Source of the DNA: Chamaesiphon sp.
GTDB lineage: Bacteria > Cyanobacteriota > Cyanobacteriia > Cyanobacteriales > Chamaesiphonaceae
Assembly: GCA_026786125.1 (NCBI GenBank)
Contig: JAJAYU010000241.1
Coordinates: 1 to 16,682 of the forward strand
Direction of reading: 5' to 3'
DNA: 16,682 nucleotides
The notes under the pieces were generated by a model that was given only the letters and a program-made list of their open reading frames with translations, did not search any database and was not told the origin of the DNA. Positions 2,358 to 16,448 of this stretch are shown here, piece by piece. The translations under genes and the position numbers were made by a program. The stretch's first letter is position 1. Each line of letters opens with the position of its first letter.

Positions 2358-3113
2358 ATGTTGTTAAGTATTCCTGCTGAAATTACAAGGTCAGAATACA
2401 TCTCTCCTTTCACGGTTAGGCTACTAGAACGATTACAAGATGCTGCATTTTTACTCGACGATCGGGGATATTTTATTTACGCTAATCCCGCTGCCTGCGA
2501 TCTATTAAATAGCTCAATGCAGGAGATAATGGCAATAAATGTAAAGGATTTACCACTAGTAAGTTTTACTCAAATTTGGTCAGCACAACAGTCTCAAGTA
2601 TCACAACCTCTTTGTTTTACAGATCGATACAGTAAGCCGACAGGTGATGAAGTAGCTGTTGAAATCACTATGATTTACGAGCAGGATCGAGATCGGAAAT
2701 ATCGCTGTCCGATCGTTCATCAATTGGATGTAAATACTGGCAAAAATATCCTGACACAGGATGAGTCTATATTGCCTAATACTCCTCATTTAGCTGGAGT
2801 ATTTCAGTTTATTGAAGAAAACTATGCTCGATCGATCAGCCTCAAAGATGTGGCTGGAGCGATGGGCTATTGTCCATCCTATCTTACCGATTTAGTCCGC
2901 CGTTGCACTGGTCAAACAGTTAATTATTGGATTATCAAACGTAGGATTGCCCTAGCTTGTAGTCTGCTACGGGAGACGGATCGGAGTGTGAACCAAATTG
3001 CCTTGGAAACTGGCTACCAGAATGAAGGACATTTCTTTAGGCAGTTTCGCCAGCACTGCGGGACAACTCCCTTAGCTTGGCGAAAATCTCAACAAATCAG
3101 GGTGGTGTCGTGA
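2358..3113 (+). CDS. PAS-domain AraC-type transcription regulator
   Basis: Cytoplasmic DNA-binding regulator of 251 residues. Residues about 20-110 look like a PAS sensor domain (LQDAAFLLDDRGYFIYANPA is a typical PAS start). Residues about 145-245 form an AraC-type double helix-turn-helix: LKDVAGAMGYCPSYLTDLVR (162-181) and VNQIALETGYQNEGHFFRQF (211-230), ending with the family's GTTPLAWRK. It lacks the sugar-binding cupin of AraC itself, so the PAS domain probably supplies the signal input. The stop overlaps the next start (GTGA), so it is translated together with the membrane sensor, and the two probably act as partners. No strong ribosome site is seen before ATG 2358; an in-frame stop close upstream (TAG in CACCTAGTC) limits other starts. 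The likely targets are the precursor and export genes of this locus, by position only. Confidence 0.8.
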   Translation: MLLSIPAEITRSEYISPFTVRLLERLQDAAFLLDDRGYFIYANPAACDLLNSSMQEIMAINVKDLPLVSFTQIWSAQQSQVSQPLCFTDRYSKPTGDEVAVEITMIYEQDRDRKYRCPIVHQLDVNTGKNILTQDESILPNTPHLAGVFQFIEENYARSISLKDVAGAMGYCPSYLTDLVRRCTGQTVNYWIIKRRIALACSLLRETDRSVNQIALETGYQNEGHFFRQFRQHCGTTPLAWRKSQQIRVVS

Positions 3114-4414
3114 AATCATTTATTGGTTCTTTTTATTCAAATTGGTCGATTGGCTACAAGATTGCGGTGGCGATGATTTTAGCAGTGGTTGTGCCCATGA
3201 CAATTTCGGCTTACCTTAACTTGCAACAGGTAGCAGAGATCGCGACCAACGGTGAATATCGGCAATTGGAATTGTTAGCTAGTAATGCCGCACAGCAGTT
3301 CGATCGACTGTTACTAGCACGGCAAGACCTGGTGACAGCAATCGGCAACCGAGTTGATGTGCAGAGATATCTAGCCACGCCACAATCTGATGCACTCGTG
3401 CTACCACAACTTACCGAGCTAGTAGCTGTCCATCAGGACATCGAGGCGATTTTACTCCTAGATCCCCAAGGCAATTGTGTGACTGCCACCAAACATCAAT
3501 TTGTCGGACAGACGTACATCCTGCCGGAAACTAAGGTGTTCCCTCACTTACACGGCAATGTGCGGGATTATCTCGGTCTGTTTGTCACTCATCAATTAGC
3601 TGCGAATCATCGGTCTGGCGCGGTGTTGTTGAAATTGAAAGAGGCAGCAATCTGGTCGGGGGTAAGTCGCGTGTTGCCGCCCAAAACTGCTGGACAATTT
3701 TTTCTCATTGACGAACGAGGGACGAGGATCGGTCAGCCTCAATTGTCTTTAGTCGATCGACCGATCGCTAATGTTACGCCAGACTTACCGCCGATTGCGG
3801 CAACTAACACCTCGGGACATATCAGCTATCAGCCTTCATTAGAGCGATCGCCCCAAATAATTGGCTTTACAACCTTGGCTACTCAGCCTTGGGTGCTGGG
3901 GCTTATTCGCTCTCAGTCTGAGTTTCAGGCTCCACTATCAGACATTACTCGGCTGAATTTGCAGGGTGCGATCGTTGTAGGGATCGTCGCAGCATTTATC
4001 GCGATGTTATTGGGAACCTGCATCTCTCGTCCGATTCAGGGGTTGACGATCGCGGCTCAGTCCTTGGAACGATCGGAAGATGAAATCTCGATCGAGCAGA
4101 TTCATCAAGATTTAGCTAAGTTTGCCGCCACTCCTGACGACCTGGGACAGTTAGTGCGCGCTTTCTTGAAAATGGTTGACGAGCGGCACCGTCGGGATCT
4201 TCAACTCAAGCACCAAGTCCAGTCTTTACGAATCCAGATCGATCGGCAGCAGCGCGAACAAGATGTGGCGGAAATTACTGAAAGTGATGGATTTATGCAG
4301 CTCCAACAAAAAATTCGGCAGCTACGCAACCACAAGCAGAGCGGAGCAGAAACGGAAACTGATTACTTTCAGCGGCTCCAAAATCGGGTGCAGTCGATTA
4401 AAGAGCGGGTCTAA
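3110..4414 (+). CDS. membrane sensor with Cache-like periplasmic domain, HAMP-like region and coiled coil
   Basis: A 434-residue inner-membrane protein. TM1 is at about 16-36 and TM2 at about 284-306. The roughly 245 residues between them face the periplasm and resemble a Cache-type sensor (EAILLLDPQGNCVTATKHQF, then a second lobe with FFLIDERGTRIGQ). After TM2, SRPIQGLTIAAQSL starts a HAMP-like linker, followed by a charged coiled coil to the end. No histidine kinase, cyclase or methyl-accepting region follows, so its output is probably by protein contact. I chose GTG 3110 because it overlaps the previous stop (TGA 3111-3113), the usual sign of coupling. A TTG at 3077 would add 11 residues that merely read through the regulator's end. 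The partner is most likely the PAS/AraC protein. Confidence 0.75.
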   Translation: MKSFIGSFYSNWSIGYKIAVAMILAVVVPMTISAYLNLQQVAEIATNGEYRQLELLASNAAQQFDRLLLARQDLVTAIGNRVDVQRYLATPQSDALVLPQLTELVAVHQDIEAILLLDPQGNCVTATKHQFVGQTYILPETKVFPHLHGNVRDYLGLFVTHQLAANHRSGAVLLKLKEAAIWSGVSRVLPPKTAGQFFLIDERGTRIGQPQLSLVDRPIANVTPDLPPIAATNTSGHISYQPSLERSPQIIGFTTLATQPWVLGLIRSQSEFQAPLSDITRLNLQGAIVVGIVAAFIAMLLGTCISRPIQGLTIAAQSLERSEDEISIEQIHQDLAKFAATPDDLGQLVRAFLKMVDERHRRDLQLKHQVQSLRIQIDRQQREQDVAEITESDGFMQLQQKIRQLRNHKQSGAETETDYFQRLQNRVQSIKERV

Positions 4415-4582
4415 ATATGTCCTTCATGGTAATTTACTCTACGTGAATGTCATGAGGATAAGGACAAGATCCGCATAAAGGCGATCGCCTGTGTAAAGTC
4501 TGTGTTTTTTTACGAACCCTCAATCTTCAATTGCTCCGATCGCCTTACATTCAAAAATTAATATTTACTACAGGAGTTAGTT
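4415..4582. other. 168-base gap inside the control module
   Basis: It holds the palindrome AGGCGATCGCCT (4479-4490), an octamer-centred repeat common in cyanobacterial genomes, and a T7 run at about 4505-4511. No classic hairpin terminator is visible. A good ribosome site (AGGAG, 4572-4576) precedes the ATPase gene. The gap may contain a second promoter, but no clear -35/-10 pair was found. Confidence 0.4.
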
Positions 4583-5359
4583 ATGGCAGAAATCATTGCG
4601 GTACATTCGTTTCGAGGTGGAACGGGCAAGTCGAACACGATCGCTAATCTGGCGGCATTAATCGCGCTCCAGGGGCTACGAGTAGGCATCATCGATACGG
4701 ATATTCAATCACCAGGCATTCATGTGATTTGGGGTCTGACTCCAGAGGAAATAAATTTTACCTTAAATGACTATTTGTGGGGGCGGTGCGGGATGAAGGA
4801 TGCCGCAGTAGATTTAACGCCAATACTCAAGGCAGCTACGACAACAGAAGTTAAAGGAAGTCTGCATTTAGTACCTGCAAGTATTAAGGCCAACGAGATC
4901 GCCAGAATTTTACGTGAAGGTTATGATGTGATGCATCTGAATGACGGTCTCCAGGATCTGATTCGGAGTTTGAAATTGGACTATTTGTTAATCGACACCC
5001 ATCCGGGGCTGAATGAGGAAACCTTGTTGGCGATCGGGATCGCCGATCTGCTGCTAATCTTACTGCGACCAGATAATCAGGATTTCCAGGGCACGGCAGT
5101 AACGGTGGATGTCGCTCGCAAATTGCAGGTATCGAAGATGGCTTTGCTGATTAATAAGGCATTACCAGAAATGTCTGCTCCAGATTTACAACGACAGGTG
5201 GAAGAAATTTATCAAGTACCTGTAGTGGGCGTATTGCCATTAGCGATCGAGGTCGCACAGATGGCGAGTCAAGGTGTATTCTGTCTACACTATCCCGAAC
5301 ATCCGATTTCTATTACCATGCGTGGAGTCGCAGAACGACTGGTGGGGGTCTGTGTGTGA
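4583..5359 (+). CDS. ParA/MinD-like P-loop ATPase
   Basis: A 258-residue cytoplasmic ATPase of the deviant Walker A family, whose members form ATP-dependent dimers that position cargo in the cell. The P loop is RGGTGKS (11-17), the A' motif is DTD (38-40) and Walker B is LLIDTHPG (135-142). The signature Lys at the start of the P loop is Arg11 here. The N-terminus VHSFRGGTGKSNT is of the kind seen in cyanobacterial relatives of uncertain role. No DNA-binding N-terminal domain and no clear C-terminal amphipathic helix like that of MinD are seen. AGGAG six bases before the ATG supports the start. The stop overlaps the next ATG (TGATG). There is no ParB-like gene nearby, so plasmid partition is unlikely. 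A role in placing or gating the exporter or sensor is a guess from context. Confidence 0.8.
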   Translation: MAEIIAVHSFRGGTGKSNTIANLAALIALQGLRVGIIDTDIQSPGIHVIWGLTPEEINFTLNDYLWGRCGMKDAAVDLTPILKAATTTEVKGSLHLVPASIKANEIARILREGYDVMHLNDGLQDLIRSLKLDYLLIDTHPGLNEETLLAIGIADLLLILLRPDNQDFQGTAVTVDVARKLQVSKMALLINKALPEMSAPDLQRQVEEIYQVPVVGVLPLAIEVAQMASQGVFCLHYPEHPISITMRGVAERLVGVCV

Positions 5360-6537
5360 TGGTGACAACAGTTGATGCTTTAACAGCTACGGCTCAGGTG
5401 CGGTTAGAACAGCGGCGGCAGGTGTTGGTAGACCTTAGGGCTGGCGATGCGGAGATTTTAGAGTTATTAGCTTACAACCAAAATATTTTCGACCACGATC
5501 GCGACTGGGATGCTCGACCAGAGGCTCATGTAGCAATATGGCGAGAATATCTGGCTGATGCTGCCGAGCTAGGGGTGTGGGAGAGTCTGCGACGGCGGTT
5601 GGTGCAGTTACGCTGGCCGATCTCAGCGGGACTGTCAGATCTGCCAGAGTATCGAGATAGTACCAGAAGGGGATTGCCGATCCCCGATCGAATCGTAGGG
5701 TTGGAATTACGATCGCCAGAGCGATTAGAGCTATTTATCCATGAAACTTGGGCGGGGCCGATTCCAGTCATTTTTGCGGGGGATCGAGTGGATTTTGAGC
5801 GGTTGGTGCAAGCATTGAGCCGCCGTAACGAACCCCTACCGATTCCAGCGGCGATGGGAGCCTGTATGGTAGCAGGTTTGAATAACTGGGATCGGGTCGA
5901 GCGTTACCGCACTGAGTGGGTGTTGCAAGGAGGAACCGAGAGCTGGGAGCAAGCTTGGCAGCGACTGCTATCCCAAAAAGAACTTTATCAAGATCGATTG
6001 ATGATTTTGAGCGATAGTCCTTATAGCAATGTTGCTGCATCAGAATTGGGATTGACAGATGATGTGTGGCGGAATCGCTCGCGCCAAATTCGGCTAGAAC
6101 ACGAGTCGATTCACTATTGGACGAAGCGATGCTTGGGAGCGATGCAGAACAATGTGCTCGATGAGTTAATCGCTGACTATTGGGGGTTGGTGAGAGCGAT
6201 GGGGGATTACCGCGCCGATTGGTTTTTGTACTTTTTAGGTTTGGAATCTTACCCACAATATCGATCGGACGGTCGGTTGGGTAACTATCGCGGTAAACCA
6301 CAACTCTCTGACGGGGCTTTTGGAGTCTTGCAAGATTTGGTCGTAGCAGCAGCGCGGAATTTGGAAGCAGCCTATCGATCGATCGGGGATCGAGTAGCCG
6401 CTCGCTATTTAGTGTTGGTACTAAGCTATCTCACCCTGGAGCAAATTGCATCTGGTGATGGAGTCAAACTGCTGACAGGTTTAGCAATCGATCTACAAAA
6501 TAACTCGGGAAAACATAATCAATTCATGGGAGTCTGA
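5359..6537 (+). CDS. conserved hypothetical protein with an HExxH...E..AD metalloprotease-like signature
   Basis: A 392-residue soluble protein without signal peptide or membrane segments. Near residue 248 it carries HESIH, fitting the zinc-binding HExxH motif. DELIADYWG starts 16 residues later (268-276), so Glu269 could be the third zinc ligand and Asp273 its support, as in ExxAD-type metallopeptidases. The N-terminal half is rich in Arg, Glu and Trp and gave no recognised fold. I chose ATG 5359, which overlaps the preceding TGA as TGATG; a GTG three bases earlier is possible. The next gene starts 3 bases after its stop, so it is tightly coupled to the ATPase and the two-domain cyclic-nucleotide-like protein. 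It might process a regulator or the precursors, or be a catalytically silent scaffold. The motif is seen; the activity is inferred. Confidence 0.7.
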   Translation: MVTTVDALTATAQVRLEQRRQVLVDLRAGDAEILELLAYNQNIFDHDRDWDARPEAHVAIWREYLADAAELGVWESLRRRLVQLRWPISAGLSDLPEYRDSTRRGLPIPDRIVGLELRSPERLELFIHETWAGPIPVIFAGDRVDFERLVQALSRRNEPLPIPAAMGACMVAGLNNWDRVERYRTEWVLQGGTESWEQAWQRLLSQKELYQDRLMILSDSPYSNVAASELGLTDDVWRNRSRQIRLEHESIHYWTKRCLGAMQNNVLDELIADYWGLVRAMGDYRADWFLYFLGLESYPQYRSDGRLGNYRGKPQLSDGAFGVLQDLVVAAARNLEAAYRSIGDRVAARYLVLVLSYLTLEQIASGDGVKLLTGLAIDLQNNSGKHNQFMGV

Positions 6538-6540
6538 GCG

Positions 6541-7626
6541 ATGACGGAAGTATTGTTACGCGAATTAATGACCGATGATATCGCTTGGCTGAAGCAGGCA
6601 GGGGTACAGAGAACGATACCAAGTGGGATGGTTTTGGTTTCAGCAGGGACAGTCGAGGAAAGTTTCTGCTTATTGCTAGATGGCTGGGCAACGGTGATGA
6701 TGCCGAGTTCGGAGTTAGATCCTTTGCAGCGGGCGTTTGCGGCAATCGAGGGGGAAACGACCGATCGAGAAATTTTCACATTGGAGTGCGGGGATATTTT
6801 TGGGAGCCTCCCTGGTTTGGTGGCACCACTACCGCAGGGGGCAGTAGTGGCGAAAGAAGATTGTACTGTTTTGGCCGTACCGCTCGCAGGGCTGGTTGCA
6901 AAGATCATGATGGACATAGGATTTGCAGGACGATTTTATAAGTTTCTGGCAATATTGTTGGCGGGGCGGTTGCAGGTGATGCTGCGCCGCTTGGAGCGGC
7001 GTAGTTTGGCTCAGGGGAAGCTGTTACGGGATGTATGGCTGGTGTTTGGGGAGTTTCACGATAGCGATGTGGAATGGTTGATGGCGATGGGTGAAGTCCG
7101 ACATGTAGCCACGGGAGAGGTGTTGGTACGGGCGGGGAATGCGATCGACTCTCTGTACCTGCTATTAGATGGCAGGTTGTTAATGCTGTGGGAGGAGGCA
7201 AGAATGAATCCTTTGTTACAGGCTTTTGCCGCGATCGAGGGCCGGGAATCGATCGGTCAGGCGGTGGCAGAGTTAGGTCAAGGAGCGTTGTTTGGCGAGT
7301 CGCCATTTTTGGATGGGCAGTTGGGACGGGTAACGATCCAGACGTTGACTGACGCTGTTGTTTTGGCAGTACCAAGGCGTGTGTTGTTAGCCAAGTTGCA
7401 GCAGGATTTGGGCTTTGCTGGCAGATTTTATCAGGTGTTGAGTGCCGTCATGGGCGATCGATTGCAAGGGGTCTATGGGCGGCTGGGCTATGGGCGATGG
7501 GTTTATACAGGGGGCGAAGAGGACGAATTAGAGATGGAAACGATCGATCGGATGGGCTTGGCAGGACGACGGTTTGAGTTGCTGCTGGGGCAGATGATGA
7601 AGAAGTTACACTGTGGGGCAATTTAG
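6541..7626 (+). CDS. bacteriocin-type transport-associated protein, two cyclic-nucleotide-binding-like domains
   Basis: 361 residues with two homologous halves. Each has a roll ending in a loop plus LLLDG (residues 44-48 and 207-211), then AFAAIEG (65-71 and 228-234) and GFAGRFY (127-133 and 291-297). This tandem architecture matches the family annotated as bacteriocin-type transport-associated protein (TIGR03896, from memory). The second half keeps FGE and an Arg in the phosphate-cassette position (ALFGESPFLDGQLGR, 249-263). The first half has FGS and no matching Arg, so at most one half should bind a nucleotide. There is no effector domain; a short acidic tail (residues 325-338) ends in a helical stretch. 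It follows the HExxH gene by 3 bases. It probably regulates export through contact with the exporter, whose second ABC protein has a similar N-terminal barrel. Confidence 0.8.
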   Translation: MTEVLLRELMTDDIAWLKQAGVQRTIPSGMVLVSAGTVEESFCLLLDGWATVMMPSSELDPLQRAFAAIEGETTDREIFTLECGDIFGSLPGLVAPLPQGAVVAKEDCTVLAVPLAGLVAKIMMDIGFAGRFYKFLAILLAGRLQVMLRRLERRSLAQGKLLRDVWLVFGEFHDSDVEWLMAMGEVRHVATGEVLVRAGNAIDSLYLLLDGRLLMLWEEARMNPLLQAFAAIEGRESIGQAVAELGQGALFGESPFLDGQLGRVTIQTLTDAVVLAVPRRVLLAKLQQDLGFAGRFYQVLSAVMGDRLQGVYGRLGYGRWVYTGGEEDELEMETIDRMGLAGRRFELLLGQMMKKLHCGAI

Positions 7627-7777: not shown

Positions 7778-7948
7778 ATGAGCGAACATCCCAAAGAAAA
7801 TAAAAATCAACCCACTGAAAATATTGATGAAGTTCTCGATGCTGCGATCGAGAATGCTGAAGCTAGAAAAGAACTGTCTGAAGCTGAGTTGGATGAAATT
7901 GCTGGAGGAATAATCGGTGGTCACACAGTTGGACTATATCAGGCGTAG
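7778..7948 (+). CDS. double-glycine precursor peptide (56 aa), first of a tandem pair
   Basis: Exported peptide precursor. Leader residues 1-44 end in ELSEAELDEIAGG; the predicted mature tail is IIGGHTVGLYQA, 12 residues with no Cys and only one Thr. A second Gly-Gly two residues into the tail offers an alternative cleavage site, giving HTVGLYQA. Between Pro12 and the first Gly-Gly the DNA is identical to the next gene at 93 of 99 bases, while the tails are unrelated. The start is supported by the conserved upstream sequence at 7759-7777. Cleavage by the C39 domain of the 11320 exporter is expected. Confidence 0.8.
   Translation: MSEHPKENKNQPTENIDEVLDAAIENAEARKELSEAELDEIAGGIIGGHTVGLYQA
7811..7909 (+). 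repeat. 99-base leader repeat, copy 1
   Basis: Codons 12-44 of the first tandem precursor. It matches 8152-8250 at 93 of 99 positions with no gaps. Similarity falls off sharply right after the Gly-Gly codons, so the duplication has kept the leader while the secreted part changed. Confidence 0.8.
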
Positions 7949-8118: not shown

Positions 8119-8283
8119 ATGAGCGTACATCCAAAAGAAAGCAACAATCTTCCCACTGAAAATATCGATGAAGTTCTCGATGCTGCGATCGAGAATGCTG
8201 AAGCTAGAAAAGAACTGTCTGAATCTGAGTTGGATGAAGTCGCAGGGGGAGTAATCTTAGGTGGTATCTCCAGAGACTGGTAG
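8119..8283 (+). CDS. double-glycine precursor peptide (54 aa), second of the tandem pair
   Basis: Paralogue of the 7778 gene with the same leader layout; the leader ends in SESELDEVAGG at residue 44. The predicted tail VILGGISRDW is 10 residues long, lacks Cys and Thr, and ends in Trp. As in the first copy, a second Gly-Gly lies a few residues into the tail and could leave ISRDW. The ribosome region AATCTAGGTTGATTC (8100-8114) is a variant of the conserved one. The two genes are 170 bases apart and may share a transcript. Confidence 0.8.
   Translation: MSVHPKESNNLPTENIDEVLDAAIENAEARKELSESELDEVAGGVILGGISRDW
8152..8250 (+). repeat. 99-base leader repeat, copy 2
   Basis: Codons 12-44 of the second tandem precursor; six differences from copy 1, four of them in the last five codons before the cleavage site. 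Confidence 0.8.
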
Positions 8284-8525: not shown

Positions 8526-8981
8526 ATGACAGATTTAAAAAAAGCTAGTGTTGCCAATCTATGTCCGAGTGCTCCATCTGACTCAGAAGAAGGTTTTGTC
8601 TTTGGAATGGTCAGCGGCACGATAGACGAACCAAAAATCAGCTATTTAAAAGAATCCCAGCCATCTCATAAGTTGATATCAAAGGTGGGAAGTAGAGTCG
8701 AACCTGGAGAAGTTCTACGTATTGCTGCTCCTTGTGAAGAAAAAAGTTGTCAGCATTTAAATGGGCAGGATTGTCGATTGGTGAAGAGAGTAGTCGAGGA
8801 TCTGCCCGTAGTTGCAGAAAACTTACCTCCTTGTGCTATTCGTCGCCATTGTCAGTGGTGGAATCAGGAAGGAATATCAGCATGTCTTCGCTGTCCGCAA
8901 GTTATCACTCGCAATTATAGACCATCAAAGTTAATGATTAAAGTTGCAGCTCCTCAACCATACATTGAAAAGAATTTTTGA
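8526..8981 (+). CDS. conserved cysteine-rich protein of unknown function, possible metal or Fe-S site
   Basis: 151 residues with no membrane segment or signal peptide. Cysteines fall at 13, 70, 75, 83, 103, 109, 120 and 123. They group as C-x4-C-x7-C in AAPCEEKSCQHLNGQDC and C-x5-C-x10-C-x2-C in the part ending SACLRCPQ. Such spacing, with His77 and His108 near by, suggests a zinc or iron-sulfur site, or disulfides if exported. The N-terminal part (FVFGMVSGTIDEPKISYL) is probably a beta domain. I recall similar uncharacterised proteins beside cyanobacterial peptide clusters but cannot name the family. AGGA seven bases before ATG 8526 supports the start. It sits between the short precursors and the Nif11-type precursor, so it may serve peptide maturation, redox control or immunity. 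Confidence 0.7.
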   Translation: MTDLKKASVANLCPSAPSDSEEGFVFGMVSGTIDEPKISYLKESQPSHKLISKVGSRVEPGEVLRIAAPCEEKSCQHLNGQDCRLVKRVVEDLPVVAENLPPCAIRRHCQWWNQEGISACLRCPQVITRNYRPSKLMIKVAAPQPYIEKNF

Positions 8982-9269: not shown

Positions 9270-9551
9270 ATGTCTCATAAAACAGTTGCTGATTTCTTCC
9301 AAGATATTAAAACAGACAGCGAATTGAAAGAATTAGTGAAAAATGCTGGTTCGACAAGTGCTAATGACTCTCAGCCTACAACCCGAATCGCGCCCGAAGA
9401 CATTCTCCGGATTGCATGCGATAAAGGTTATGAATTTAATGTTGAAGAACTACAGGCATATGTTCAGAAATCTCGTCAAAATGGAGAACTCAGCATGGAA
9501 GAACTGGAGTCTGTAGCTGGGGGAAGAATGATTATTATTATAATATTCTAA
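9270..9551 (+). CDS. Nif11-type leader precursor with an isoleucine-rich core (93 aa)
   Basis: Long-leader RiPP precursor. Residues 1-85 resemble the Nif11-like leader family (TIGR03798, from memory): ADFFQDIKTDSELKELVK near the start, DILRIACDKGYEFNVEELQA in the middle, and ELSMEELESVAGG before the cleavage point. The predicted core is only RMIIIIIF, coded by an ATT/ATA-rich run (9529-9548). It lacks Cys, Ser or Thr, so lanthionine or azoline chemistry is impossible on this core. The run could come from repeat slippage that put a stop early, or be a genuine hydrophobic peptide. The start is the first ATG consistent with the family; no strong ribosome site is seen. A hairpin with a T-rich tail follows. 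Export by the NHLM system just downstream is expected. Confidence 0.8.
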   Translation: MSHKTVADFFQDIKTDSELKELVKNAGSTSANDSQPTTRIAPEDILRIACDKGYEFNVEELQAYVQKSRQNGELSMEELESVAGGRMIIIIIF

Positions 9552-9719: not shown

Positions 9720-11333
9720 ATGCTCAATTCCAAACGCAAGATCTTTCGTGATGAATCACTAGAGCGGCTATCCTCACCAGAGGCACTAGACCAACTGATG
9801 AAGGTAATTAGTCCCAAAAGTCTATTACCAGTTGCTGCGATCGGTATTATCTCGATCGTTGGTGGAACCTGGAGTGTTTTTGGGAGAATTCCTGTAACAG
9901 TTGAAGGTCAGGGCATTCTAATGCACCCTAGTAATGTCGTTCCTTTACAAATCAAAAGTGCCGGACAACTCAGCACCATTAACATCAAAGCCAATGACAT
10001 TGTTAAAAAAAATCAAGTAATCGGTACGATCGATCAAAGCGAACTACGAAAACAGCTCCAGCAGCAAAAAAACAAACTCCAAGAACTCCAATCCCAAAAC
10101 CTCGCCAGCAAAACCCTCCAACTTCAAGTCCGCGATCGTGAAAAACAATTAATCGCCCAACAGCGTAAAATCACCACCGCCCGCATCCAAGAACTTCAAT
10201 CCCTCGCTCCCATCCTCAAATCCAAAAGCCAACAATCGATTCGAGAACAGCGTCGCCAACTCGAACAAAAAGTCGCTGGACTACAGGCACTCAGTCCCAT
10301 TCTCAAACAAAAAGGTCAAGCTGCGATCCAGCAGCAACGGCTCGCTATAAAGCAGCAAATTAGAATGGATACTAGCCAGCTCCCCGTCCTCCAGAGTCGC
10401 GCCACCAAATTTAAGGAGATCTTCGCTAAGGGCGTAATCAGCCAAGAAACATACTTACGTGCCGAGCAAGAATACCAGAAAAAGCAAGAAGACATCGCCC
10501 AACTCAACACCCAGCTTAGAGAAGCCGACACCAAAGAAAACGACGTTCAGGAGCGATACATTAACAACCTAAATGACATTACCCGTAGCCAAGCCGATCT
10601 GCAAAAGCTCGAACAAGACGAATCCATCACCCAGGAAACCTATCTGCGGAACCAAAACGAAATCGCCAAGTTACAAACCGAACTTGAAGACCTCAATAGC
10701 CGCGAAGCTACGCAATCCAAACAAAGCTTCCAAGACACAACCACCCGCGACAATCAAGTCGCCGAACTCCAGCGGGAAATCACCAAACTCGAAATCCAAA
10801 TCGGCAATAGCAGTCAACTTATCAGTCCCTATAGCGGTCGGGTGTTAGAAGTCACGCAAAGACCAGGCGAAGTTGTCGCAGTTGGAGGGAGATTAGCAAC
10901 GATTGAAGTAGAAAACTCTACCAAAGCTCTTTCTAGTATTACCTACTTCACTGTGGCAGAAGGTAAAAAAATCCAGCCAGGGATGTCGATCCAACTTACC
11001 CCCCAAACCGTCAAACGCGAACGCTTTGGCGGTATTGTTGGCAAAATCATCGCTGTCTCGCGCTTCCCTATCACCAGCGAAACAGTTGCCCATGAAATTG
11101 GCAACTCCGATCTAGCCTATACGCTGGCAAAAAAACGTGAAGGATTAATTCAAGTTACCGCCCGACTGGAACGCGACTCCAAAACCCCTAGCGGTTATCA
11201 ATGGTCTTCCTCCACTGGGCCAGCGGGGAAGATCACCCCAGGTACTACCACGGTCGTCCGCGTCAAAGTCGAAGAACGCGCCCCCATCACCTTTGTATTA
11301 CCAATCTTGAGGTCAGTCAGTGGTTTGGACTAG
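9720..11333 (+). CDS. HlyD-type adaptor of the NHLM peptide export system
   Basis: Membrane fusion protein of a type I peptide exporter. It is anchored in the inner membrane and spans the periplasm to an outer-membrane channel not found here. A short cytoplasmic N-terminus (FRDESLERLSSPEALDQLMK) precedes one TM segment at about 36-52. Lipoyl-type halves follow, at about 60-105 and again near ISPYSGRVLEVTQRPGEVVA (364-383). Between them lies a very long coiled coil of about 250 residues. It includes an internal duplication: LQSLAPILKSKSQQSIREQR is followed about 35 residues later by LQALSPILKQKGQAAIQQQR. At 537 residues it is longer than the roughly 400 I expect for the family. It overlaps the next start by 14 bases. 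No Shine-Dalgarno is seen; the start is chosen by the family-like N-terminus. Confidence 0.88.
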   Translation: MLNSKRKIFRDESLERLSSPEALDQLMKVISPKSLLPVAAIGIISIVGGTWSVFGRIPVTVEGQGILMHPSNVVPLQIKSAGQLSTINIKANDIVKKNQVIGTIDQSELRKQLQQQKNKLQELQSQNLASKTLQLQVRDREKQLIAQQRKITTARIQELQSLAPILKSKSQQSIREQRRQLEQKVAGLQALSPILKQKGQAAIQQQRLAIKQQIRMDTSQLPVLQSRATKFKEIFAKGVISQETYLRAEQEYQKKQEDIAQLNTQLREADTKENDVQERYINNLNDITRSQADLQKLEQDESITQETYLRNQNEIAKLQTELEDLNSREATQSKQSFQDTTTRDNQVAELQREITKLEIQIGNSSQLISPYSGRVLEVTQRPGEVVAVGGRLATIEVENSTKALSSITYFTVAEGKKIQPGMSIQLTPQTVKRERFGGIVGKIIAVSRFPITSETVAHEIGNSDLAYTLAKKREGLIQVTARLERDSKTPSGYQWSSSTGPAGKITPGTTTVVRVKVEERAPITFVLPILRSVSGLD

Positions 11334-13545
11334 TACAGCCAGTGTCGCCGTTACTACAAAAAAAATCCTCCCCAAAACCAGGCGGGTCAGGACTCCTACT
11401 GTCTTGCAAATGGAAGCTGTTGAATGTGGTGCTGCCGCCTTGGGTAGCATCTTGGCTTACCACGGTCGCATCGTACCGCTGCCCGAACTTCGCTACGAAT
11501 GTGGCGTATCGCGGGATGGGAGTAAAGCCTCCAATATGATTAAGGCTGCCAAAATGTATGGCATGGAAGCCAAGGGCTTCAAGAAAGAACTAGCCCAACT
11601 AGCCGAACTTAAACTCCCCTACATTGTATTTTGGCATTTCAATCACTTTGTCGTGGTAGATGGCTTGTGTGGCGATCGAGTCTATATCAACGATCCTGGT
11701 AGCGGTCCGCGTCAAATTACCGCTGAAGAATTTGACGAAGGCTACACTGGTGTAGTTCTGACCTTTGAACCTGGGATAGAATTTCAAAAGCAAGGGCACA
11801 AAGGTAATATGGTTGCCGCCCTTTGGAAAAGACTGCGCGGCTCGACTGGAGCCTTGCTTTACTGCATGGTGACTGGCTTATTTCTGACCATGCTTGGGAT
11901 GGTAATTCCCGTCTTCAGTCAGATATTTGTCGATGATATTTTAATCGAAGGGCGACGGGCTTGGTTGTTTCCACTGCTATGGTCGATGGGCATTGCAGGC
12001 ATTCTTCAAGCTGCAATTACGCTGCTGCGCCTCCGCTACCTCCGCAAACTGAGGGTCAAACTGCATGTTGGGATGTCCAGTCGCTTTCTGTGGCATATTC
12101 TGCGATTGCCGATGAGTTTCTATGCCCAACGATATGCAGGTGAAATTAGCAATCGCGCTCACCTCAACGATTTTGTCGCCGACATCCTGTCAGGTAAATT
12201 AGCCACTACGGCGATCGATAGCCTCATGGTAATCCTGTATGCTGCGATCATGGTGCAGTACGACTGGGTACTGACCGCAATCATCGTCGGATTCGCGGCG
12301 ATTAACGCGATCGTCTTGCAAAAGATTTCCCGCCAACGGATCGATGCCAATCAAAAGTTAATGCTCGAACAGGGTAAGGCAATCGGTGTCTCGATCGCTG
12401 CTCTCCAAAGCATCGAAACCCTTAAAGCATCCGCCCTCGAATCGGACTTCTTTGGCCGCTGGTCTGGCTACTATACCAAAGCCCTCAACTCCCAACAAAC
12501 GCTAGAAGCTACCAACCAGACTTTTTCAGTTCTCCCCGTGCTGCTCTCGGCGCTTTCCGCCGCTGGACTGCTGGTCGTCGGTGGTTTGCGAGTAATGGAT
12601 GGGCATCTGTCGATCGGGATGTTGATTGCCTTCCAAGGTCTGATGCTCAGCTTCCAACAACCCGTTAACAATCTCGTCAGCTTTGCCACTACGCTCCAAG
12701 AACTAGAAGGCGATCTGGTGCGACTCGATGATGTACTCGACAACCCAATCGATCCTATTCTGTCTTCCCAACATCCTACCCAGCAAAACACCACACTTCA
12801 ATACGCTGTACCCAAACTTCAAGGTCGCGTCGAACTTCGCCAACTGACGTTTGGCTACAGTCGCCTTGCACCAGCATTAATTACCGATTTCAACCTCACG
12901 ATCCAACCAGGCCAACGGGTGGCTCTAGTCGGCAGTAGCGGCTCTGGCAAATCCACCGTCGCCAAGCTAGTTAGCGGACTTTATCAGCCGTGGGCTGGGG
13001 AAGTTTTATTTGACGATCGACCCAGATCGACGATTCCCCATCACATCCTCACTAACTCGATCTCGATGGTCGAACAGGATGTCGCCCTATTCGGCGGCAC
13101 CATTCGCGACAACTTAACCCTCTGGGATACCACTATCCTACAGAAGCAAATTCAAGCTGCCTGTGCCGATGCCGCGATCGATAGCACGATTTTGGCACTA
13201 TCGAGTGGCTATGACAGCCTACTCAATGAAGGCGGTGCGAATCTCAGTGGCGGACAACGTCAACGACTGGAAATCGCCCGTGCCCTAGTCAGCAATCCCA
13301 GCATCCTCGTCATGGACGAAGCTACCAGTGCCCTCGATGCTGAAACCGAACAATCGATCGATGGGCACCTGCACCGCCGAGGTTGCACCTGTATCATCGT
13401 CGCTCACCGCCTCAGCACAATCCGAGATTGCGATGAAATTATCGTATTCGATCGGGGTAAAGTCGTTCAACGTGGTACCCACCAATCGCTCTGGTCGGTA
13501 CCAGGTATCTATGCCAAATTAATTAGTACCGAAGGAGGAACATGA
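11320..13545 (+). CDS. NHLM-type ABC exporter with N-terminal C39 peptidase
   Basis: 741-residue inner-membrane transporter that cuts double-glycine leaders and exports the tail. The C39 peptidase domain (about 22-150) has Gln30, catalytic Cys36 in MEAVECGAAAL, His109 in HFNHFVVVDG and Asp125 in NDPGSG, a complete active set. A six-helix membrane domain follows (about 175-465). The ATPase domain has Walker A GSSGSGKST (538-546), Q-loop Gln586, signature LSGGQ (642-646), Walker B ILVMDE (662-667) and His696. GTG 11320 lies inside the end of the adaptor gene; TTGAGG 7 bases upstream supports it. It should recognise both the short leaders and the Nif11-type leader, all ending in (A or N)GG. It ends in an overlap with the second exporter. 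Confidence 0.92.
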   Translation: MVWTSTASVAVTTKKILPKTRRVRTPTVLQMEAVECGAAALGSILAYHGRIVPLPELRYECGVSRDGSKASNMIKAAKMYGMEAKGFKKELAQLAELKLPYIVFWHFNHFVVVDGLCGDRVYINDPGSGPRQITAEEFDEGYTGVVLTFEPGIEFQKQGHKGNMVAALWKRLRGSTGALLYCMVTGLFLTMLGMVIPVFSQIFVDDILIEGRRAWLFPLLWSMGIAGILQAAITLLRLRYLRKLRVKLHVGMSSRFLWHILRLPMSFYAQRYAGEISNRAHLNDFVADILSGKLATTAIDSLMVILYAAIMVQYDWVLTAIIVGFAAINAIVLQKISRQRIDANQKLMLEQGKAIGVSIAALQSIETLKASALESDFFGRWSGYYTKALNSQQTLEATNQTFSVLPVLLSALSAAGLLVVGGLRVMDGHLSIGMLIAFQGLMLSFQQPVNNLVSFATTLQELEGDLVRLDDVLDNPIDPILSSQHPTQQNTTLQYAVPKLQGRVELRQLTFGYSRLAPALITDFNLTIQPGQRVALVGSSGSGKSTVAKLVSGLYQPWAGEVLFDDRPRSTIPHHILTNSISMVEQDVALFGGTIRDNLTLWDTTILQKQIQAACADAAIDSTILALSSGYDSLLNEGGANLSGGQRQRLEIARALVSNPSILVMDEATSALDAETEQSIDGHLHRRGCTCIIVAHRLSTIRDCDEIIVFDRGKVVQRGTHQSLWSVPGIYAKLISTEGGT

Positions 13546-16448
13546 TGGCGATCGACCTACGCGGCACCAGCTCCCAACTACATGGCTCCCAACCCCTACC
13601 CCTCAACGATCCCCAGCAAGTTTGGGTCGTCGAAGCTGGGTCGATCGCCATTTTCGTCATCACTACTGAGTCGATCGACAATCCCCAAGAGGGGAGCGCC
13701 ATCGGTCAACGTCAATACCTCTGCACCTTAGAACCACAGGCTGCCATGTTTGGAGCCACCGATCCTTCAGTTCGACTCCTTGCCGTCCCCCTCGGTTCCG
13801 CTCGAATCCTGAAACTAGATCCTCAATGTTGGGTAGAACTCTGCCAGCAAAGCGATCCGCGCATCTCCACTTGGCTTCAGAATTGGTTCGATCTCCTCGT
13901 GCCGATTCTGGCTACCCAACCATTTCCCACCGCGCCAGTCCAAGCGGAATTAACAGCCCACTATTCATTAATCGATCGCCAAACCTTACAAACTACTGAT
14001 GTGTGCTGGGTCGAAATGCAATCGGGTACCGCTTGTTTGCAAGGGATTGAAGAACTAATACTCACCGCTGAAGCCCTACCCTTACCTGCCAAAATCTGGC
14101 TATCATCTGTAGGCGAGGTGCAAATTGCTACCCACCCCCTCAATAATATTTCGCCAACGGCACTGCTGTCTGGGCTAGAGCGATTTCATCGTTGTCTATT
14201 CCAAAGTATTCGCCTGAGTAATGCCTGTCAGCTCCAGGTCGAGCAAGCTCGCCTTACCGCTCGTACTCAATTAAACCAAGAAGTTACCCTCCAAACTCTC
14301 GAATCTCTAGCAGGTACGTTACCCAATCCTCAGCGGCGATTTATGACTACTGGCGACCCATTGCTTCAAGTCGTCGGTGCAGTCGGGCATATCTTAGGCA
14401 TGGAAATCCGCCCCCCAGCGCGTTCAGATCGAGCCATCCAGAGCAAAGACCCCTTAGCAGCGATCGTCAGAGCCTCCCGCCTGCGGATGCGGCGCGTACT
14501 CTTGCGCGATCGCTGGTGGGAGCAGGATAACGGCTCACTGATTGCCTACACCAAAACCGATCTACAACCGATCGCCTTACTCCCCACACAGGGTCGTCGC
14601 TATGAAGTTTTTCAGCCTCCATTCGCCCAGCCCCAGCCTATTACCGAATCACTCGCCGCTACTATTTCGCCTGTAGCTTACATGCTATATCGCTCCCTAC
14701 CCGATCGAGCGATACGAGCGTTCGATATTCTAAAATTCAGCTTGCAGGGTCGGCAGGGCGATATTCTCGCGATCGTTTTTACAGCTGTTCTGGTAGCTCT
14801 GTTAGGTTTAGCGATTCCTTATGCCACTCAGATTATTATGGATAGTGCGATCCCCGATAGCGATCGGGGTCTGTTACTGCAAATCGGCCTGGGATTATTA
14901 GTAGCTGCGCTCGGTACGGCTTGTTTTCAACTGGCTCAGGGTTTCTCGTTGCTAAGATTGGAAACAACGACCGATCATGTTGCCCAAGCTGGTGTTTGGG
15001 ATCGATTATTGAATTTACCAGTCTCTTTTTTCCGCCAATACACGACAGGCGACCTCCAATCCCGCGTCTCTTCAGTCAGTGCCATCCGTCGCCAGCTCAG
15101 CGGTCGAAATTTAGTCAATCTGGTTAGTAGTTTTTTCACTCTGTTTTACCTCGCTCAGCTCTTTTATTACAGTTATGAATTAGCTCTAGTTGCCGTCGGC
15201 ATTGCTTCAGTCACGATCGTCGTGACGATCGCTTGTGGTCTGCTGCTCCTATCCAAAGTCCGCCCCCTTCTGGAAGTGCGCGGTGAAATCTTCGGTCAAA
15301 CCGTCCAACTAATGAATGGTATCGCCAAGCTCCATATTGCGGGAGCCGAAGAACGAGCTTTTGCGGCATGGAGTAAGAAATTTTCTCGGCAAGTCAAACT
15401 AGAATCGAGCACTCAGTCGATCGAGGATTTTGTGGTGCTATTCAATACGGTGATGCCGATCGCCAGTTCCGGTCTACTATTTTGGTTTGCCATTCGCATG
15501 TTAGATCGCCCAGTACCTGTAGGGACGGAAGCGATTGCCTTTTCGTTGGGTACGTTTTTGGCTTTTAATAGTGCATTCGGTCGCTTTACTCAAGGCACGA
15601 CACTTTTGAGCAATACGGTCACTGAAATTCTCCAAGTTATTCCCCAGTGGCAGCGGACTCGTCCCATTCTCCAAGCCGTTCCAGAAATCGATCTCACTAA
15701 GGCCGATCCTGGTAGATTGTCTGGTCGAGTGTCGATCGAACGAGTCACCTTTCGCTATCAACTCGATGCACCATTAATTTTGAACGATATTAGCATTCAG
15801 GCAGCACCAGGAGAATTCATCGCTTTGGTGGGAGCATCTGGCAGTGGTAAATCGACCATTCTTCGGTTGTTACTTGGATTTGAATCGCCCCAAAATGGGG
15901 CGATTTTCTATGATGGGCAAGATTTAGCGGGATTAGATGTCGATGCCGTGCGGCGACAGTTTGGGGTAGTACTTCAGCAAGGACAATTGACCTCGGCTTC
16001 GATATTTGAGAATATCAGTGGTAGCGGTCAAATAACTTTAGATGATGCCTGGTCTGCCGCACGGATGGCTGGTCTAGCAAAGGATATCGAAGATATGCCG
16101 ATGCAGATGCATACAATGGTCAGTGAGGGCGGCGGGAATATCTCTGGCGGTCAACGGCAGCGACTCTTGATTGCCCGTGCCTTGGTACATAAACCACGAA
16201 TTCTATTATTTGATGAAGCCACAAGCGCATTGGATAACACCACACAAGCGATCGTCAGTCAGAGTTTGGATCGGCTCCAAGTGACACGGATCGTCATCGC
16301 CCATCGATTGAGTACGATTCAAAATGCCGATCGGATTTATGTGCTAGAGAAAGGACAAATCGTTCAGCATGGCAAGTTTAGCGAGCTAGCTGCCAACTCG
16401 ACTGGTTTGTTTGCACGATTGATTTCCAGACAAGTCGCGAATGCGTAG
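13545..16448 (+). CDS. NHLM-type second ABC transporter, without peptidase domain
   Basis: 967-residue partner of the C39 exporter; the two probably form a heterodimer. The first 390 or so residues hold no peptidase. They start with a barrel-like stretch (QVWVVEAGSIAIFVI, then MFGATDPSVRLLAVPLGSAR) resembling a degenerate cyclic-nucleotide-binding fold, followed by an unassigned region. Membrane helices lie at about 408-700. The ATPase has Walker A GASGSGKST (763-771), signature ISGGQ (866-870), Walker B ILLFDE (886-891) and His920, so it looks active. AAGGAGG (13532-13538) is 6 bases from ATG 13545 and only 3 from ATG 13542, hence the start chosen. The preceding stop is TGA 13543-13545. The N-terminal barrel may talk to the two-domain protein of 6541-7626. 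Confidence 0.9.
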   Translation: MAIDLRGTSSQLHGSQPLPLNDPQQVWVVEAGSIAIFVITTESIDNPQEGSAIGQRQYLCTLEPQAAMFGATDPSVRLLAVPLGSARILKLDPQCWVELCQQSDPRISTWLQNWFDLLVPILATQPFPTAPVQAELTAHYSLIDRQTLQTTDVCWVEMQSGTACLQGIEELILTAEALPLPAKIWLSSVGEVQIATHPLNNISPTALLSGLERFHRCLFQSIRLSNACQLQVEQARLTARTQLNQEVTLQTLESLAGTLPNPQRRFMTTGDPLLQVVGAVGHILGMEIRPPARSDRAIQSKDPLAAIVRASRLRMRRVLLRDRWWEQDNGSLIAYTKTDLQPIALLPTQGRRYEVFQPPFAQPQPITESLAATISPVAYMLYRSLPDRAIRAFDILKFSLQGRQGDILAIVFTAVLVALLGLAIPYATQIIMDSAIPDSDRGLLLQIGLGLLVAALGTACFQLAQGFSLLRLETTTDHVAQAGVWDRLLNLPVSFFRQYTTGDLQSRVSSVSAIRRQLSGRNLVNLVSSFFTLFYLAQLFYYSYELALVAVGIASVTIVVTIACGLLLLSKVRPLLEVRGEIFGQTVQLMNGIAKLHIAGAEERAFAAWSKKFSRQVKLESSTQSIEDFVVLFNTVMPIASSGLLFWFAIRMLDRPVPVGTEAIAFSLGTFLAFNSAFGRFTQGTTLLSNTVTEILQVIPQWQRTRPILQAVPEIDLTKADPGRLSGRVSIERVTFRYQLDAPLILNDISIQAAPGEFIALVGASGSGKSTILRLLLGFESPQNGAIFYDGQDLAGLDVDAVRRQFGVVLQQGQLTSASIFENISGSGQITLDDAWSAARMAGLAKDIEDMPMQMHTMVSEGGGNISGGQRQRLLIARALVHKPRILLFDEATSALDNTTQAIVSQSLDRLQVTRIVIAHRLSTIQNADRIYVLEKGQIVQHGKFSELAANSTGLFARLISRQVANA

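Follow-up and report, generated by a model that had tools for sequence, protein, structure and literature searches.

Peptide exporters of the NHLM-NHLP type (group V) are the closest described relatives of the locus studied here. In the parts of Wang et al. 2011 covered by this analysis (PMC3140520), these clusters share a C39 peptidase-ATP-binding cassette (C39-ABC) transporter, a peptidase-less ABC protein, an HlyD subunit, a protein with two CAP_ED domains, and precursors with GG leaders. According to the covered portions of that paper and of a 2015 survey (PMC4558948), a group V cluster combines a two-CAP_ED protein with two transporters, a short C39-ABC transporter and an additional ABC transporter. 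HetC of Nostoc is another cyanobacterial peptide exporter with a cyclic-nucleotide (cNMP)-like domain, reported to bind ppGpp (PMC10986499, in part). On the signalling side, ParA/MinD ATPases use charged segments of partner proteins, usually at the N-terminus, and many are orphans with no known partner; the ParC/PpfA type also works with a partner bearing a charged segment, some of these partners belonging to sensory arrays (PMC10241942, in the sections consulted). We analyzed a 16,682-nucleotide stretch from Chamaesiphon sp. (the window), which is the whole of contig JAJAYU010000241.1 in an assembly of 77% completeness (GCA_026786125.1). Its locus belongs to the NHLM (Wang group V type) clusters for peptide export and bears two add-ons: a membrane sensor whose C-terminal tail is paired with a variant ParA-like ATPase, and a member of the DUF7005 family.

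The sensor had been read as output-less in the original prediction, a note made from the sequence of the window. Its Pfam dCache and HAMP scores fall under the curated cut-offs. An AlphaFold model (pLDDT 75.6, pTM 0.55) gives, in order, a Cache domain, a second long membrane helix, a HAMP-like part and a further long helix, and closes with two short helices; Foldseek matched it to the dCache domains of DctB and of amino-acid chemoreceptors (E ~1e-8 to 1e-6). Pfam at E≤1 detected no output domain of the kinase, GGDEF or MCP kind; besides dCache and HAMP it gave two weak matches to unrelated families. NCBIfam histidine-kinase matches were weak (16.5 vs. 725 and 16.1 vs. 194 bits) and confined to residues ~266–358, the membrane and HAMP part. 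Assignment as a histidine kinase or a chemoreceptor was rejected, as HisKA/HATPase and MCP signalling domains were not detected. The protein ends in a tail of ~60 residues that is conserved among ParA-adjacent sensors (consensus IEIDxxKKxxxVAEITESDYFxxLQxKAxxLR). Because this conserved tail pairs with ParA, the sensor is not output-less, and that description was abandoned.

The same tail was found with dCache, CHASE2, Tll0287-like, sCache-HAMP-PAS, PAS, GAF and kinase-FHA domains, so that the input domain is exchanged and the tail and ParA are retained. It forms the C-terminal end of most proteins and lies ~100–150 residues from the end in CHASE2 proteins. A GAF protein with the tail occurs ~11 kb from ParA in one DUF7005 locus (L111), and in a ParA-less DUF7005 locus (L064) the tail sits between the two domains of a kinase-FHA protein. 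A PDB sequence search with the tail gave nothing convincing. The terminal basic stretch of the tail is net positive in 22 of 25 profile rows, which would fit the role of a ParA partner, though known partner segments are N-terminal. As a separate observation, a Nif11-type leader opens the dCache sensor open reading frame (ORF) in two Nostoc loci (L030:6608-8422 and L083:2634-4463), i.e. a precursor leader is fused to a sensor; it was identified by Pfam Nif11 (3.2e-13) in L030, where it ends in GG, and by eye in L083, where it ends in AG.

The deviant Walker A motif of the ParA/MinD superfamily is KGGxGK[ST], which includes a signature lysine. The ATPase of the window belongs to this superfamily, with three ParA domains over cut-off (PF10609, 60.2 bits; PF13614, 59.7 bits; PF01656, 54.5 bits), and its best sequence relatives in the PDB are MinD-type structures, FleN also being matched. 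It misses the MinD models (TIGR01968, 65.1 vs. 212.9 bits; TIGR01969, 85.3 vs. 201.75 bits), and it lacks the signature lysine: the motif reads [FY]RGGTGKSN, with arginine for the first lysine, in 58/58 ParA proteins of DUF7005 loci, and RGGTGKSN likewise in all 17 rows of a ParA alignment (A6). The protein is therefore not to be filed as canonical ParA or MinD. A literature search covering few subscription journals found no paper on the RGGTGKS motif. A ParA with a partner protein is an already known kind of system; the present pair differs from ParC/PpfA in the arginine at the signature position, in a tail that is mostly C-terminal and in its several unrelated sensor domains. In two Chloroflexota loci (L152, L153), a single tail sensor is accompanied by three tandem ParA-like genes, of which the middle one reads RRGTGKT.

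Tail and ParA genes are co-inherited and often adjacent. Presence was scored across 386 cyanobacterial genomes (ParA at E≤1e-30; the tail, with a 25-row profile designated A4, at E≤1.5e-5) by searches that score the best candidates of a first pass, so that weak members may be missed. ParA was present in 53 genomes and the tail in 52, and both were present in 52 (Fisher p=4.9e-64). At E≤0.01 the tail appeared in 56 genomes; four of these are marginal (E 9e-4 to 9e-3), have no ParA and are excluded from the 52. The sole ParA genome without a tail at E≤0.01 (G360) has a ParA copy that is only 42% identical. When the 13 genomes that supplied rows to the tail profile were left out, 39 of 40 ParA genomes had the tail, and no ParA-free genome had it at E≤1.5e-5. 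Copy numbers of the two correlate (Spearman 0.71, 53 genomes), and their presence and absence agree in ten genera picked for holding both states, the tail column of that comparison having been filled from the equality of the genome sets. For comparison, 21 of the 53 ParA genomes are shared with NHLM2, the peptidase-less exporter, and 23 with the double-cNMP family. Within DUF7005 loci, the tail occurs in 48 of 58 with ParA vs. 2 of 41 without it. Outside them, 20 of the 67 ParA places were opened, and 13 of these stretches contain a tail protein, the proteins being of varied types (CHASE2, Tll0287-like, sCache-HAMP-PAS, dCache-HAMP and PAS).

The pairing extends beyond cyanobacteria, and the tail with RGGTGKS-ParA was seen in Chloroflexota, Deinococcus and Rhizobium as well. 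Among 11 non-cyanobacterial genomes bearing DUF7005, ParA was found in three and the tail in the identical three (titled Anaerolineales, Ardenticatenaceae and Anaerolineae); in two of them, three consecutive ParA-like genes adjoin the tail sensor. Of 13 plasmid matches to ParA, six were opened, and three of these stretches contain the tail (L162, L163 and, from Nostoc sp. C057, L167). In the Rhizobium jaguaris plasmid (L162), ParA and the gene of a 145-aa tail protein overlap by 4 nt; in the Deinococcus plasmid (L163), the tail protein has 341 aa, is encoded two genes downstream from ParA and overlaps a second ParA-like ORF. The plasmids L163, L164 and L166 (Deinococcus, Streptomyces, Nostoc) also share genes for an AGE epimerase, GlgX and a STAS/anti-sigma-antagonist protein with the ParA relatives, and L163 and L164 additionally encode a SpoIIE phosphatase.

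The second add-on, described earlier only as an HExxH protein, belongs to DUF7005 (442.4 bits vs. a gathering cut-off of 27). Gluzincins are marked by HExxH together with a downstream glutamate in the form ExxxD. This motif is present in DUF7005 as HExxH-x16-ExxxD, with identical spacing in 98/98 loci, even in relatives at ~30% identity. In the AlphaFold model (pLDDT 90.1, pTM 0.88) the HExxH lies in helix 234–259 and the glutamate in helix 266–281. DUF7005 is probably a zincin-type metalloenzyme. A PDB sequence search revealed no convincing relative, and the literature search described above found no paper on DUF7005, PF22541 or TIGR03896. In one locus (L050:9908-11173), the DUF7005 ORF carries extra N-terminal sequence which, judged by eye, looks like the beginning of the LanM-like ORF of L030.

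DUF7005 was found in 19 of the 386 genomes, 11 in the gene order of the window and 8 divergent, in one family. DUF7005 and NHLM2 over cut-off share 11 genomes vs. 0.9 expected (p=1.4e-13): all 11 same-order genomes have NHLM2, which occurs in 31 genomes in total, and the 8 divergent genomes miss its cut-off, two of their loci (L041, L042) holding exporter-like ABC genes at 33–35% identity. Same-order DUF7005 lies ≤20 kb from NHLM2 at 11 of 12 places; a fragment in genome G064 is included in the 11 genomes and 12 places, and the 8 divergent genomes are excluded there. Since 20 of the 31 NHLM2 genomes are without DUF7005, it is not required by every such exporter. A scan for named genes kept 80 of 96 DUF7005 loci (68 cyanobacterial and 12 others); counts of gene content exclude one fragmentary locus (L040) and count some strains twice (L054/L035, L074/L031, L101/L038, L051/L052), and L113 and L117 come from one genome. 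NHLM1, the C39 peptidase-ABC exporter, or NHLM2 is visible within the stretch at 44 of the 68 cyanobacterial loci and at 10 of the 12 others, the two misses being on short contigs; the latter 12 loci are from 11 genomes, titled Chlorobiaceae, Anaerolineae, Anaerolineales, Ardenticatenaceae, Acidobacteria, Acidobacteriaceae, Desulfobulbaceae and Heliobacteriaceae. Of 26 DUF7005 loci showing no exporter within the stretch, whole-genome searches were run for 13 (11 with flanks of ≥8 kb on either side and two short loci), and NHLM2 over cut-off was found in all 13 genomes, one being the strain of G376.

Gene order is also conserved. ParA is directly upstream of DUF7005 in 41 of 49 named cyanobacterial loci having ParA, and the double-cNMP gene is directly downstream of DUF7005 in 50 of 52 having that gene. 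Sensor, ParA, DUF7005 and double-cNMP genes occur together in 41 of 98 DUF7005 loci and all five genes in 24, AraC being elsewhere or on the opposite strand in some. The original prediction that these genes keep company beside NHLM exporters far above chance is borne out by these counts and by the 11 genomes shared by DUF7005 and NHLM2. It had also treated the five genes as one control module, to be doubted if common without an exporter. This is true of the signalling part: at 55 of 67 ParA places there is no over-cut-off NHLM2 ≤20 kb away on the same contig, so that sensor and ParA form a general signalling module that is used here too; the reverse applies to DUF7005, which is an exporter companion. 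ParA lies ≤20 kb from 12 of 37 NHLM2 places, three of these without DUF7005. The exporter is indeed a meeting point for a sensor, a ParA-type ATPase and a likely metalloenzyme; a single dedicated export-control module was rejected, because most ParA places are far from exporters. The locus genes are three parts: the sensor-ParA pair, DUF7005 and the double cNMP protein. The suggestion of an undescribed control system survives for the tail-ParA pair, which appears to be undescribed and reaches wider than peptide export; the novelty tied to export itself is DUF7005. The main text of Wang et al. 2011 (PMC3140520) nowhere uses the terms ParA, AraC or hypothetical (0 occurrences), and neither the pair nor DUF7005 is described in the parts of it covered.

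The best explanation overall, to which we give slightly better than even chances, is that a tail-ParA switch pair and a DUF7005 metalloenzyme are add-ons to NHLM export. The first would be a portable signalling pair of sensor and ParA. A periplasmic ligand would bind the Cache domain and change the HAMP and coiled-coil parts, which would expose or align the conserved tail; the tail would then bind or stimulate ParA-ATP in a direct, ATP-dependent switch. ParA might in turn place or license the exporter, or else the partners of the exporter, the DUF7005 and TIGR03896 proteins encoded directly downstream. Judging from gene order, ParA most likely relays the state of the sensor to the exporter in this locus; the sensor ligand, the contact of tail and ParA, the use of ATP and the effect on export are steps that we infer. 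The second add-on, DUF7005, would most likely be a zincin-type metallopeptidase or a related metalloenzyme acting on exported peptides. The TIGR03896 protein probably tunes export through a nucleotide-like ligand or may serve as an inert scaffold.

Several observations weigh against this explanation. Only 45 of 78 tail places lie ≤5 kb from ParA, and 43 of 67 ParA places ≤5 kb from a tail. No tail is present in the stretch at 10 of 58 ParA-bearing DUF7005 loci (the stretches of L059 and L067 start at ParA), at 7 of the 20 opened ParA stretches, or at three of the six plasmid stretches (L164, Streptomyces; L165, Pseudanabaena galeata; L166, Nostoc NIES-3756), and the tail-less L165 is itself an NHLM locus. 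No tail was seen ≤6 kb from the inspected Streptomyces copy (one of five matches, ~40%) or from the Nostoc NIES-3756 (55%) and Pseudanabaena galeata (57%) copies; given these and the G360 copy, the pairing may not hold for every such ParA. Exporter-distant ParA-tail pairs share no obvious neighbour: the 10 neighbouring proteins checked include a CLC channel, CHAT/TPS proteins, a histidine kinase with a permease-like part, and others. Outside cyanobacteria, 11 of 12 DUF7005 loci are without ParA, and the ParA, sensor and double-cNMP genes each occur at one of the 12; DUF7005 thus goes with the exporter and not with the signalling pair, and ParA is not needed. Foldseek found no clear structural relative of DUF7005 (none at E≤0.001). 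In most TIGR03896 rows inspected, the usual phosphate-binding arginine of cNMP domains appears, on our reading, to be replaced. The Cache domain of the window sensor is without the FREYF stretch found in most relatives, and this sensor may sense differently from them. A protein of ~865 aa (MP870; hydrophobic segments, no Pfam family, e.g. L034:5770-8448), usually located between sensor and ParA, is present in 27 of the 68 named cyanobacterial loci, and neither the window nor its assembly, which is 77% complete, contains a match to it; a PDB sequence search with it gave nothing convincing. With the Cache stretch and this protein both missing, the present copy may be a reduced version.

If ParA instead positions the exporter, or clusters of exporter and sensor, as ParC/PpfA does for chemoreceptor arrays, no switching of activity would be involved. 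The basic end of the tail, and the placing of chemotaxis clusters, flagella and carboxysomes by ParA/MinD ATPases through charged partner segments (PMC10241942, in the sections consulted), argue for such a role. We nevertheless think it rather doubtful, as known partners are usually charged at the N-terminus and the tail segment is mostly C-terminal, the tail is also carried by PAS-only or GAF-only proteins, which do not point to any evident cargo, this ParA has arginine for the signature lysine, and 55 of the 67 ParA places are distant from exporters. A purely transcriptional role, in which ParA would restrain the neighbouring AraC regulator in the manner of the anti-activator FleN and the pair would control only expression of the cluster, seems distinctly improbable: the 4-nt AraC/sensor overlap in the window and the match of ParA to FleN are consistent with it, yet AraC is found in only 22 of the 68 named cyanobacterial loci, in some of them on the opposite strand or at a different position, and the linkage of ParA to the tail is far tighter than that of AraC.

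The metalloenzyme has a rival reading of its own, which we consider unlikely: DUF7005 would be a non-haem iron oxygenase, of the alpha-ketoglutarate-HExxH or Fe/pterin PolE type, that oxidizes the precursor before export, the rest being an ordinary group V cluster. SnPolE, an Fe/pterin oxidase, comes first among the weak VIA scores for DUF7005, and alpha-ketoglutarate-HExxH enzymes are present in clusters for RiPPs (ribosomally synthesized and post-translationally modified peptides; PMC12636437, in part). Metallopeptidases occupy 12 of 13 rows at VIA ranks 3 to 15, all with weak scores. The PolE family has HE/DxxH-x(21-23)-E and resembles DPP III (PMC12614342, in part), and the DUF7005 spacing, x16 followed by xxxD, sets it apart from gluzincin peptidases, alpha-ketoglutarate-HExxH oxygenases and PolE (DUF6421). 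A peptidase is favoured over an oxygenase only moderately. Mere accretion, in which signalling genes hitchhike on a mobile RiPP island without joint function, would account for the coming and going of MP870, AraC and radical SAM genes between loci and for the location of several loci on plasmids; we judge it very unlikely, given the conserved order and strand of ParA-DUF7005 and DUF7005-cNMP and the co-inheritance of tail and ParA genome-wide and in the ten genera checked.

Returning to the switch pair and metalloenzyme as add-ons, the analysis names by sequence a proposed partner segment for this ParA; the two are co-inherited almost without exception in one phylum, and their pairing recurs in three further phyla, with few genomes each. 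We would put at about even the chance that tail and RGGTGKS-ParA constitute an undescribed class of signal transduction, with interchangeable sensors, ParA in place of a kinase or cyclase and NHLM export as one client, and that DUF7005 is a new NHLM metalloenzyme across phyla. If so, bacterial sensors that look output-less would have a new type of output, and a class of peptide exporters would gain a conserved metalloenzyme.

An ORF check of the window confirmed the five predicted genes, in coordinates and in family (Table 1). The tight packing claimed for them is seen at three of four junctions: AraC and sensor overlap in GTGA (4 nt), ParA and DUF7005 meet in TGATG, and 3 nt separate DUF7005 from the double-cNMP gene. 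The sensor-to-ParA gap is 168 nt, so the packing is one of two plus three genes. The exporter itself is identified by TIGR03796 and TIGR03797, both over cut-off, and by an HlyD subunit, which was assigned via HlyD_3 in a scan that did not include TIGR03794. PADLOC gave no convincing defence match.

Table 1. Features of the 16,682-nucleotide window
Feature	Positions	Strand	Evidence
AraC-family regulator, PAS + HTH_18	2358-3113	+	Pfam
dCache-HAMP membrane sensor, GTG start	3110-4414	+	Pfam sub-threshold, AlphaFold/Foldseek
Sensor C-terminal tail, second DYFxxLQ repeat copy; proposed ParA partner segment	4166-4411	+	
168-nt gap; ~865-aa protein sits here in many relatives	4415-4582	+	
ParA/MinD-like ATPase, Arg replacing signature lysine	4583-5359	+	Pfam, NCBIfam, PDB sequence matches
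Variant Walker A of ParA, HSFRGGTGKSN	4604-4636	+	
DUF7005 (PF22541), putative zincin-type metalloenzyme; alternative GTG start 5356	5359-6537	+	Pfam 442.4 bits
HExxH-x16-ExxxD motif of DUF7005 (HESIH ... DELIAD)	6100-6177	+	
TIGR03896 cyc_nuc_ocin, double cyclic-nucleotide-binding-like protein	6541-7626	+	NCBIfam 244.4 bits
GG-leader precursor-like peptide	7778-7948	+	
GG-leader precursor-like peptide	8119-8283	+	
Nif11-type precursor peptide	9270-9551	+	TIGR03798 49.9 bits vs. cut-off 32.3
HlyD-like exporter subunit	9720-11333	+	HlyD_3 24.3 bits vs. cut-off 22.2
NHLM1, C39 peptidase-ABC exporter (TIGR03796)	11320-13545	+	1132.6 bits vs. cut-off 853.3
NHLM2, peptidase-less ABC exporter (TIGR03797)	13542-16448	+	1000 bits vs. 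cut-off 709.4

The double-domain protein is a member of TIGR03896 (244.4 vs. 161.05 bits) with two PF00027 cNMP stretches. The name of this NCBIfam model, bacteriocin-type transport-associated, already links the protein to bacteriocin transport and states no mechanism; in these loci gene order ties the gene to DUF7005 and ParA. From this name and the group V descriptions it follows that the exporting half of the cluster, double-cNMP gene included, is of a known kind. It differs from HetC, in which the cNMP domain is fused to the ABC protein, in being a separate protein. The AraC regulator is optional, as the 22 of 68 loci indicate, and PAS seems, on visual inspection, to be replaced with a receiver domain in L031. 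The genome of the window also encodes another NHLM2 (C299:902-2971) and another TIGR03896 protein (C28:4613-5665).

Additional genes in the window lie outside the add-ons. Positions 955-1824 encode a radical SAM/SPASM maturase that is without the N-terminal CxxxCxxC part and looks truncated; this part is kept in nine relatives of >50% identity (L032, L062, L067, L073, L081, L082, L089, L102 and L119), and a tenth (L125) is cut by the edge of its locus. A GG-leader peptide ORF (785-958) terminates just within the start of the maturase gene. Positions 8526-8981 encode a Cys-rich protein of 151 aa with no Pfam family, and longer relatives of it, with 46–48% identity and 9 Cys, were found in the DUF7005 loci L031, L065, L074 and L085, L031 and L074 being one strain.

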